In this document: positions 43,181 to 45,682 of the stretch, piece by piece | How positions within the stretch are numbered: the first letter of the stretch is position 1 | Layout of the letters: each line of letters begins with the position of its first letter | Source of the DNA: Sphingomonas sp. HMP9 | Lineage (GTDB): Bacteria; Pseudomonadota; Alphaproteobacteria; Sphingomonadales; Sphingomonadaceae | Length of the DNA stretch: 64,000 nucleotides | NCBI RefSeq assembly: GCF_013374115.1 | Contig: NZ_AP022673.1 | Coordinates: forward strand, 1,826,501-1,890,500 | Direction of reading: 5' to 3' | Translations under genes and position numbers: made by a program | Notes under the pieces: model-generated | Seen by the model: only the letters and a program-made list of their open reading frames with translations | What the model was told of the DNA's origin: nothing | Database searches by the model: none

Positions 43181-43339
43181 GCCGGGAGCGTAGCCGCTGG
43201 TAGCGGACAAAGCCACAGGCTCCGTTTGTTCTCCCTGTGATGCGAAAGCCACATTGATATAGATTGTTGGTTCCAGGGGATAATTTTCCGGCGACGGGCC
43301 GTTTATGAAAAACCTGTCATGAAGTTTCCGGGAGTGAAT

Positions 43340-44197
43340 ATGACTAAGACGATGATGGTGGCGCTCGCTGGCGCCGCTACGCTGGGGTTTGCTGCAATGC
43401 CGGTCTCGGCCCAGGAGATCACCGAAGACGCGCCGTTCAGCGGCATCTATGTGGGCGCGGCCGGTGGGTATGACGTGCAGCCCAACGATATCGGGTCGTC
43501 GATCCAGTTCGATCGCAACCTCGACGGCCGGTTTGGCGATGCGGTCACGACCGCGACGGGTGCCAACGCGTTCTCGCCGGGCTTCTGCAACGGCGCCGCG
43601 ACCAGCAGCACCGCCCCTGCCGTCGGTGGCAGAGGCTGCCGCAACGACAAGAACAACACGGCCTATTACGCGCGCGTCGGCCTCGACCAGCAGATGGGCA
43701 ACATCGTCGTCGGTGTCGTTGGCGAGTTCGGCAAGTCGAACATCCGCGACAGCGTCACCGCGTTCTCGACCACGCCCGCCTTCTATACGATGACCCGCGA
43801 TCTTGCCTGGGAAGCCTCGATCCGCGGCCGTGCGGGCTATGCGGTCAACACGACGCTGTTCTACGGCACGTTCGGCGCGGGCTATGCGCGGATCAACCGC
43901 GATTTCTATTCGAGCAACACCGCCAACGCTTATGCGCAGAGCGGCAAGAAGAACCAGTTCGGCATCACCGGTGGCGGCGGCATCGAGCAGAAGCTCGCCA
44001 AGAACATCTCGGTCGGCCTGGAATATATGTTCCACCAGTATCAGGACGACGACGCCCGGGTCCTGGTGACGCGCGGCACGCAGCCCGCGACCAACCCGTT
44101 CGTGCTGGCACCGAACACGGCCGGGACGGCGTTCAAGCGGTCGGACGACAATTTCCGGTGGCACAGCGTCCGCGGCACGGTGGCGTTTAGGTTCTGA
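43340..44197 (+). CDS. Outer-membrane beta-barrel protein (OmpW/opacity-like porin family)
   Basis: A 285-residue exported protein; the signal peptide ends AMPVSAQE. The mature part begins APFSGIYVGAAGGYD and ends SVRGTVAFRF, typical of small 8-10-strand surface barrels ending in Phe. Two Cys (FCNG, GCRND) may form a disulfide in a loop. The ATG at 43340 follows CGGGAGTGAAT; 43319 is upstream but weaker. Its 3' end carries a structured element shared with gcrA. Confidence 0.85.
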   Translation: MTKTMMVALAGAATLGFAAMPVSAQEITEDAPFSGIYVGAAGGYDVQPNDIGSSIQFDRNLDGRFGDAVTTATGANAFSPGFCNGAATSSTAPAVGGRGCRNDKNNTAYYARVGLDQQMGNIVVGVVGEFGKSNIRDSVTAFSTTPAFYTMTRDLAWEASIRGRAGYAVNTTLFYGTFGAGYARINRDFYSSNTANAYAQSGKKNQFGITGGGGIEQKLAKNISVGLEYMFHQYQDDDARVLVTRGTQPATNPFVLAPNTAGTAFKRSDDNFRWHSVRGTVAFRF

Positions 44198-44340
44198 GGC
44201 GACGGGCGGCCTGCACCATGCTTGTGCAGGACTCGCCCAAGCCCGGCCGGCGCGGCTCGCCGCGGCCGACGACATGGGCTTTGCCCATGGCTAGCTGATA
44301 CAGAGGCCGCTTCCCCACCAGGGGAAGGGGCCTCTTTCTT
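44198..44340 (+). ncRNA. Structured 3'-UTR element / sRNA candidate, copy 1 (after outer-membrane gene)
   Basis: About 143 bases starting right after the TGA of the outer-membrane gene. It folds into: stem 1 CCTGCAC/GTGCAGG (44211-44231); a GC-rich stem 2 around 44241-44272; stem 3 CATGGGC TTT GCCCATG (44273-44289); and a terminator (44303-44335) followed by TTTCTT. The same sequence recurs on the minus strand after gcrA (44766-44911) with stem 1 changed on both sides. It could be a released sRNA, or only a conserved processing/termination module. Confidence 0.55.
44303..44340 (+). terminator. Rho-independent terminator of the outer-membrane gene
   Basis: Stem GAGGCCGCTTCCCC / GGGGAAGGGGCCTC with one mismatch, loop ACCA, then TTTCTT. 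Confidence 0.85.
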
Positions 44341-44448
44341 GTTTTCGGGAGGTCGATGCTGCGTCCTTAGGACAGCCGGCAGCTCCGTCGCTCGGGTACA
44401 TCACGTGAGTGACAGACTGATTTTGCTGTCCCGCGAAGCTTGTTCTCC

Positions 44449-44497
44449 GGTGAAGGCGGGAGCCCAGTCTGGAACCCTGCCTTCGCGGGGAAACATG
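44449..44497. repeat. Shortened family B repeat
   Basis: GTTCTCCGGTGAAGGCGGGA on the left and CCTGCCTTCGCGGGGAAAC on the right, with only about 10 bases between. It seems to have lost its centre. Confidence 0.65.
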
Positions 44498-44572
44498 CTG
44501 GGGGCGGTCGGTATGGTCGTGGCTAGATGTTCTCACTGGGTTTGTTAAGCGCCGCCCGTGTCGCTCCGTATA

Positions 44573-44677
44573 CCTCCCCGGCGAAGGCCGGGGCCCAATT
44601 GGGAAGGTCGATGTAACGAGGGGCGGCCCGTCGTTATTGCCGTTTCCCAATTGGGCCCCGGCCTTCGCCGGGGAGGG
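44573..44677. repeat. Family A palindromic repeat
   Basis: CCTCCCCGGCGAAGGCCGGG and CCCCGGCCTTCGCCGGGGAG, inner CCCAATTGGG on both sides. It is one of the best-kept copies. It lies in the 714-base gap 44198-44911, which holds only repeats and the two ncRNA candidates; I see no gene. Confidence 0.88.
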
Positions 44678-44765
44678 GCCTGGTTTGAGCGTGGCGGCGG
44701 GTTGAGACGCGCAAGCCAAAGCGCGCTGCCGGAACGAGCCCGGTACCCAGACGGGCAATCCAAAC

Positions 44766-44802
44766 GGAAAAAGGCCGCTTCCCCGGGGGTGGGGAAGCGG
44801 CC
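44766..44802 (-). terminator. Rho-independent terminator of gcrA
   Basis: Perfect 12-bp stem GGCCGCTTCCCC / GGGGAAGCGGCC with 6-base loop, and TTTTTCCG on the minus strand. Confidence 0.88.
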
Positions 44803-44911
44803 TCTGTCTCAGGCTAGCCATGGGCAAAGCCCATGTCGTCGGACGCGGCGTTGCCGCGCCGGCCGGGCTTGGGCGAGTCCGTTGCCAATGTGGCAACGGC
44901 CGCCCGGCGCC
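44766..44911 (-). ncRNA. Structured 3'-UTR element / sRNA candidate, copy 2 (after gcrA)
   Basis: About 146 bases starting directly after the gcrA TGA at 44912. It aligns end to end with 44198-44340: same GGGCGGCC entry, stem 1 now CCGTTGCC/GGCAACGG (44880-44902), same ACTCGCCCAAGCCCGGCCGG, same CATGGGC TTT GCCCATG stem, same CAGAGGCCGCTTCCCC, and a terminator with TTTTT. Stem 1 keeps pairing though both arms changed, which supports RNA structure. Confidence 0.55.
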
Positions 44912-45682
44912 TCACCTCGGCCGAGGCCCACCGAACGGCAGCGGCGGAGTCGGGCGACGGTCGCGGCGCGGGAGCTGCGCCTGATACGCGTGGCCGCAGT
45001 GATCGACGCAATACGGGAAGCCCGGATTCACGGCCTTGCCGCAGAAATGGAAGTCCGGCTCGCCGGGATGACCGAGCGGCCATTTGCAGATGCGGTCGTT
45101 GAGTTCGAGCAGGCTCGTCTTGTTCGCCATCTCGGCGGACGGCTTGGCGGGCACGAGGCGACGCGGCGGGGCGGGCGTGCTTGGCGGCTGTTGCTCGCCG
45201 GGCGCCTGGCGGAGGAATCCGCCTGGGCCGACCGAGCGCAGGATCGGCTGCGGTGCACGGACGGGCGCGGGCACGGCGGGTACCGCTTCATCCTCGTCCT
45301 CGTCTTCGTCCTCGTCGTCCTCCGGGTCTTCAGCAACCGGCTCGGGCTCGACCGGTGCTGCGGGCTTGGCCGCTGCGACGACGGGCGGTGCGACCGGTGC
45401 AGGCTTGGGGGCCGCGACCTCGACCGGCTCCGCTGCCGGTGCCGCAACCGGCTCGGGAGCCGCTGCTGCGACCGATGCCGAAGCCTCGGCTGCAGCCGCT
45501 GCCTTGGCCTCGGGATCGTTCGGCTTCACCGGCGACGGGCGCGCCTGCAGTTCGAGGCGGTGCGCCTTGCCGATGACGGCGTTGCGGCTGACGCCACCCA
45601 GTGCTTCGGCGATCTGGCTGGCGGTCTGGCCGGCCTCCCACATCGTCTTGAGCGTCGCGATGCGCTCGTCGGTCCAGGACAT
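44912..45682 (-). CDS. gcrA: GcrA family cell-cycle regulator
   Basis: Transcription coactivator that binds sigma70-RNA polymerase and, in Caulobacter, GANTC-methylated promoters. The N-terminal HTH is typical: MSWTDERIATLKTMWEAG, QTASQIAEALGGVSRNAVIGKAHRL. The C-terminal sigma-binding/zinc-like part is LLELNDRICKWPLGHPGEPD then FCGKAVNPGFPYCVDHC. Between them lies an Ala/Pro/Val linker ending in a run of Asp/Glu (residues about 110-125). At 256 residues it is well above the usual 165-180. The start follows AAGGAACGAAC. Confidence 0.95.
   Translation of the reverse strand: MSWTDERIATLKTMWEAGQTASQIAEALGGVSRNAVIGKAHRLELQARPSPVKPNDPEAKAAAAAEASASVAAAAPEPVAAPAAEPVEVAAPKPAPVAPPVVAAAKPAAPVEPEPVAEDPEDDEDEDEDEDEAVPAVPAPVRAPQPILRSVGPGGFLRQAPGEQQPPSTPAPPRRLVPAKPSAEMANKTSLLELNDRICKWPLGHPGEPDFHFCGKAVNPGFPYCVDHCGHAYQAQLPRRDRRPTPPLPFGGPRPR

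Follow-up and report, generated by a model that had tools for sequence, protein, structure and literature searches.

The window analysed here is a 64,000-nt stretch of the Sphingomonas sp. HMP9 genome. It contains two convergent neighbouring genes, omp (outer-membrane beta-barrel protein) and gcrA, each followed immediately by a copy of a structured repeat. The features of this locus are listed below, with the repeat copies scored by the covariance model R2, and the helices of copy A placed by model.

43319..44197, plus strand: omp, host gene of copy A; stop codon TGA at 44195-44197; Pfam OMP_b-brl, E 2.5e-7
44198..44289, plus strand: copy A of the repeat; R2 match 98.9 bits, E 2.6e-13; fold z -5.0
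44198-44200/44241-44243 and 44204-44208/44234-44238, plus strand: helices P0 and P1 of copy A
44210-44216/44224-44230 and 44248-44256/44259-44268, plus strand: helices P2 and P3 of copy A
44273-44279/44283-44289, plus strand: helix P4 of copy A
44302..44345, plus strand: intrinsic terminator 3' of copy A, not part of the conserved unit
44764..44808, minus strand: intrinsic terminator 3' of copy B, not part of the conserved unit
44819..44911, minus strand: copy B of the repeat, immediately 3' of the gcrA stop; R2 match 103.3 bits, E 5e-14; fold z -7.9
44912..45682, minus strand: gcrA, host gene of copy B; stop codon TGA at 44912-44914; Pfam GcrA, E 1.7e-42

With its terminator included, the stretch of copy A runs from the omp TGA to about 44345 on the plus strand, and that of copy B from the gcrA TGA to about 44764 on the minus strand. 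The two copies were found to be 86% identical over 148 nt (E 8e-40, BLAST against the whole genome), which confirms the earlier note's description of two stretches of about 145 nt on opposite strands that start at the two TGA codons and align end to end. The CATGGGC/GCCCATG stem and the terminator common to both stretches were likewise recovered, as was a first stem that is exchanged between the copies yet paired in each (CCTGCAC/GTGCAGG versus CCGTTGCC/GGCAACGG). The copies are inverted with 529 nt between them and have spacer and terminator sequence in common. Each folded better than 200 of 200 dinucleotide shuffles; the register of P3 was shifted when copy A was folded by itself. The point that the earlier note missed is that these twins are two members of a multi-copy family.

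Weaker copies in the same genome were detected by BLAST with copy A as the query; these lie after rho, a second outer-membrane gene, eipA, etfA, and others. Covariance model R1 was built from eight copies, and R2 from 65 matches, some of which are the rho copies that it later found. R1 matches at E<=0.01 were present in 47 of 61 same-genus genomes, counting that of the window, and ranged from none to 39 per genome (70 candidates scored in each). In the R2 search of four genomes (150 candidates scored in each, E<=0.001), there were at least 15 copies in the window's genome and at least 68, 38, and 17 in G003, G044, and G076, respectively. In broader searches, matches were obtained in 18 of 119 same-family genomes and 13 of 91 genera (35 candidates scored per genome). 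A class-wide draw gave matches in 2 of 241 genomes, with only 17 candidates scored in each; the two belong to the same genus. Since the number of candidates scored per genome was limited, all copy numbers are lower bounds and the absences carry little weight. An exact pattern located 29 stretches in named genomes, 28 of them Sphingomonas (three uncultured) and one an uncultured bacterium; the species include S. faeni, S. aerolata, S. aurantiaca, S. rubra, S. hankookensis, S. albertensis, and S. psychrolutea. The twins therefore belong to a dispersed, palindrome-rich repeat family of gene 3' ends in Sphingomonas and some related genera.

In the window, Rfam 15 gave no match at the gathering score. 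At E<=10, the best hit overlapping copy A, copy B, or a terminator was ar7 with 22.2 bits against a cut-off of 60, and none was convincing. The literature searched yielded no paper describing a stop-anchored Sphingomonas repeat family. The covariance model could serve for annotating Sphingomonas genomes; the window copies are without an Rfam 15 match. Carriage of the repeat by phages or plasmids was rejected, as viral contigs contained no such stretch (one search pattern) and plasmids gave no match to copy A.

The conserved unit of about 93 nt consists of the helix P0-P1-P2 followed by the segment CGGC, the hairpin P3, the segment ACGA, and the hairpin P4. P0 has three pairs in the model and five in many of the copies at rho. 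Together with P1 it surrounds P2, whose joint is GACT in one class of copies and GAGACG in another. The joining segments CGGC and ACGA are near-invariant and unpaired, one bulged A or T follows P3, and the P4 loop is conserved as a TTT or TTC type. The consensus is bounded by GGCG and the 3' strand of P4, with the unpaired ACGA inside it, and the unit itself lacks a U tract. At four loci of other genera (L116, L119, L126, and L128), an entire terminator-like hairpin lies within P3 with the flanking conserved segments retained.

GANTC, the CcrM methylation motif, occurs in the repeat core of 81 of 182 non-redundant copies (73 times as GACTC), compared to 36 of 182 when the sequences were shuffled. 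The motif nevertheless corresponds to the GACT joint that marks one class of P2, and a connection to GcrA/CcrM by way of GANTC was rejected.

The pairing is supported by extensive compensatory change. Of the stem cells in 59 distinct copies, 96.7% were paired; changes on both sides were observed at 29 of 32 pairs, and 317 double-change cells were counted compared to 78.2 in shuffles, while pairing fell to 26-44% when the partner was slid by one to three columns. The covariance alignment is itself biased towards pairing, and the covariation counted in it exceeded that of the shuffled controls. The earlier note had proposed a covariance search of sphingomonad genomes; the search was run and yielded both copies elsewhere and further covariation, and the claim that pairing is maintained by compensatory change is upheld. 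The note had further suggested selection for RNA structure. Of this, conserved pairing stands by the covariation, while selection specific to RNA, acting on the repeat stems, is weakly supported: the stem cells of 182 copies included 105 G.U and 98 A.C combinations. In 53 well-aligned copies the counts were 28 and 15, respectively, compared to 9 and 0 for the tRNA stems of the same loci. Given this weak excess of G.U, the pairing may be maintained at the DNA level.

Position relative to genes was assessed with our own scripts for gene finding (by codon usage), stop-codon scanning, and terminator scanning, the gcrA stop being entered by hand; 206 copies were reduced to 182 at 90% similarity. 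A stop codon of the upstream gene was found within -30 to +2 nt of the copy 5' end in 119 of the 182 non-redundant copies and within -9 to +2 nt in 106, a negative offset placing the stop within the copy. Another 25 copies start 3-200 nt after a stop, eight follow a tRNA (seven of these at -1 to +1 of the tRNA 3' end), eight begin no more than 13 nt from a start codon on the opposite strand (five within 1 nt), and 22 fall in none of the stop, tRNA, or start-codon classes. Before redundancy removal (n=166), the offsets peaked at 0 (35 copies), -2 (31), -1 (16), and -7/-6 (26). At the other end of the unit, an opposite-strand stop was found within -30 to +2 nt of the copy 3' end in 1/182 and within -30 to +200 nt in 50/182. 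Terminator-like sites were present within 120 nt downstream of 54 copies compared to 18 of 182 with shuffled flanks. Taken together, the evidence for conserved pairing and position in the family is strong. In two genomes, an antisense copy (L032:1498-1581 and L192:1896-1984) lies within 1 nt of the start codon of a GATase-domain gene (by Pfam for L192), probably guaA, and occupies the usual position of a ribosome binding site.

The host genes were diverse. The ten identified by Pfam in the window's genome comprise two OMP_b-brl genes, GcrA, Rho, EipA, EtfA, a family-A DNA polymerase, TypA/BipA, EF-G, and an FtsJ methyltransferase. In G003 (20 of the 30 listed hosts scanned), they include SecA, an anthranilate-synthase-like enzyme, an amino-acid kinase with ACT domains, a GyrB/ParE type, a pyrophosphatase, Lgt, PCMT, and dehydrogenases, among others. 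The suggested link between GcrA and envelope proteins was not substantiated, the hosts being unrelated genes and tRNAs with no GcrA or envelope theme.

The most detailed data were obtained at rho, which was found in 58 of 61 genomes and carries a copy at its stop codon in 30 of the 58 (E<=0.05). The offset was -2 in 24 of these 30 copies and -3 (two), -8 (two), -14, and +4 in the rest; 20 of the 30 offsets were measured (44 of 59 loci were placed by script) and ten were read from coordinates. The rho copies have a mean identity of 56%, yet 95.9% of cells are paired, with double changes at 26 of 32 pairs and 170 double-change cells compared to 44.5 in shuffles. In three genomes (L261, L247, and L271), the stretch from the rho copy to the following gene contains another copy in antisense, giving an inverted pair as in the window. 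For gcrA, found in 61 of 61 genomes, the 3' region was examined in 59, since G007 and G075 gave no match reaching the C terminus; a copy was present at the stop in ten, with offsets from -21 to +4. The G003 copy that lies opposite gcrA (L157, G003:C1:281900-288000) does not follow an omp gene; it is separated by 13 nt from the start codon belonging to a GyrB/ParE-type gene.

In copies at offset -2, the first two bases of P0 are the last two bases of the stop codon, and the partners follow the codon: TAA is found mostly with TT, TAG with CT, and TGA with TC. Across all copies at this offset, the stop bases were paired in 54 of 58 cases compared to 30.1 in shuffles (0/10,000). For the rho copies the figures were 42 of 46 and 24.4 (0/10,000), and for non-rho genes 12 of 12 and 6.7 (654/10,000, p ~0.065), the last of which is not significant alone. 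At offset -1, where all copies lie outside rho, pairing of the one stop base was found in 12 of 14 cases compared to 6.4 (22/10,000). Since the model alignment favours pairing, the test was repeated at rho with a sequence anchor only, and 37 of 54 cases were paired compared to 25.0 in shuffles (3/10,000; L253 and L269, which have no model match, included). The last two bases of the rho stop codon thus usually form part of the basal helix and show covariation with the bases opposite.

Evidence for movement of the unit came from G003. Among 80 matches in this genome, mean identity was 48%, and only 5 of 3160 pairs were at least 90% identical. One pair was 99% identical over 103 nt, while the rest of the 1094-nt query had no alignment there, and one member of this pair lies directly after the stop codon of glyS (Pfam glycyl-tRNA synthetase beta subunit). 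No element was found in the two glyS orthologs with a readable stop among nine fetched, and glyS ends at the same place in them. From the near-identical copy and the empty ortholog sites, a newly arrived copy seems to have been placed directly after the intact glyS stop codon in G003. An older copy of the repeat at glyS may instead have been replaced by gene conversion. The evidence for mobility of the family is considered moderate. The Y1/RAYT transposase (PF01797) was found in 0 of 20 genomes, including the seven richest in R1 matches, while the control was found in 5 of 14. On this basis, RAYT-driven REPs were rejected as the identity of the family.

The closest comparison is with the GTAG and CGTC REPs. 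Di Nocera et al. 2013 (PMC3733652) describe these as dispersed palindromes mostly 3' of coding regions, where the neighbouring genes are convergent or co-directional; those of P. entomophila and S. wittichii often lie no more than 20 bp from an ORF 3' end, GTAG REP ends often provide a TAG stop, and CGTC REPs have no dedicated transposase. The Sphingomonas family is alike in being multi-copy (68 or more in one genome), mostly extragenic, and 3' of genes, and it has habit and placement in common with REPs. It differs in size and build (about 93 nt with three hairpin domains, compared to a single palindrome of 20-40 bp), in having no unpaired GTAG or CGTC end tag, in having variable stems and fixed joints, and in copies whose start lies at a stop codon or a tRNA end and which are able to form pairs with the stop codon. 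The RAYT/Y1 transposase by which the GTAG super-family is recognised was lacking in the 20 genomes. With tag, size, and transposase absent, the family may work like a REP and is not classed as one. REPs located no more than 15 nt from a stop codon are reported to lower translation in E. coli (PMC12306157). The Sphingomonas unit resembles these in placing a strong hairpin right after the stop, possibly with the same effect on the ribosome, but it is unlike them in sequence and architecture and in that its basal helix can take in the stop codon. Some copies lie just upstream of an intrinsic terminator, and the four loci noted above have a terminator-like hairpin inside P3; unlike terminators, the unit has no U tract, and most copies have no terminator-like site within 120 nt in our scan.

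We consider it probable, with some reserve, that the family is a REP-like, partly domesticated repeat that acts in cis at transcript 3' ends. The unit would have spread as a non-autonomous REP-like element and would be retained at some genes, rho above all, for the compact hairpin cluster that it places in the transcript from the stop codon onwards. The cluster may shield the 3' end from exonucleases, slow the terminating ribosome, or both, by analogy with what PMC12306157 reports for E. coli REPs near stop codons. Several points count against this reading: the weak signal of RNA-specific selection, the two-base stop pairing that is not significant by itself outside rho, the patchy presence at single loci, such as gcrA (10/59), the copies after tRNAs, for which no action via a stop codon is possible, and the copies that lie beside start codons or are unassigned. 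A more specialised function, suggested by the basal helix on the stop codon, would be that of a portable cis-acting module of translation termination, inserted precisely at gene ends without a RAYT, in which folding and stop-codon reading would be mutually exclusive and which would serve housekeeping genes, rho included. We think this rather unlikely as a whole.

A minority chance, to be taken seriously, is given to the proposal that the family is a purely selfish DNA repeat, with hairpins that it needs, in the form of single-stranded or cruciform DNA, for copying itself and that have no role in the host transcript, gene ends being simply where insertions are tolerated or targeted. This is supported by the near equality of G.U and A.C overall (105 and 98), the uneven load of the genomes (none to 39 matches with R1, and 68 or more in one genome with R2), the 99% identical copies in unrelated flanks, and the copies after tRNAs and beside start codons. 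It does not readily accommodate the rho copies in 30 of 58 genomes, which retain pairing through sequence turnover to a mean identity of 56%, the extension of compensatory change into the stop codon, or a 5' end so near the stop, which is beyond what toleration alone explains. The sRNA family derived from 3' UTRs, in which the hairpins would be excised from mRNAs and act in trans on other messages, was deemed improbable. Structured 3' UTRs, a terminator-like site in part of the copies, and the conserved unpaired CGGC, ACGA, and P4 loop agree with it; on the other side, a regulator with defined targets would not be expected in so many copies (68 or more in one genome), placed behind unrelated genes and tRNAs, terminator-like sites accompany just 54 of 182 copies, and the window has no Rfam match at the gathering score.

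The remaining proposal, also raised in the earlier note, was a local inverted duplication of the terminator region, with likeness maintained by recent gene conversion between omp and gcrA. The inverted arrangement at 529 nt and the shared spacer and terminator sequence would fit, and in the window's genome the comparison was neutral, the twins being as alike (73%) as the orthologs (71-74%). In the pair G074/G050, however, orthologs between genomes were 87% (omp copies) and 94% (gcrA copies) identical, compared to 75% and 78% for the twins within a genome. Local gene conversion is thus unnecessary and, on the G074/G050 identities, unsupported, and with other copies elsewhere in the genome and an omp copy but no gcrA copy in G024 and G018, the proposal as a whole is regarded as very improbable. 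The family lends itself to direct tests of what retains a cluster of hairpins at the ends of tRNAs and at stop codons, and of how it spreads in the absence of a RAYT. The rho stop codon, covarying with its pairing partner, offers a sharp handle on whether structure in the 3' UTR affects termination, decay, or the DNA level.

A separate element was noted between copies A and B. At positions 44573-44676 of the window, two arms of 33 bp (GGCGAAGGCCGGGGCCCA type) make up a perfect inverted repeat, which is probably a REP dimer of the kind common in sphingomonads. Palindromes of a similar GAAGGC type occur close by and, in a relative, 3' of gcrA.
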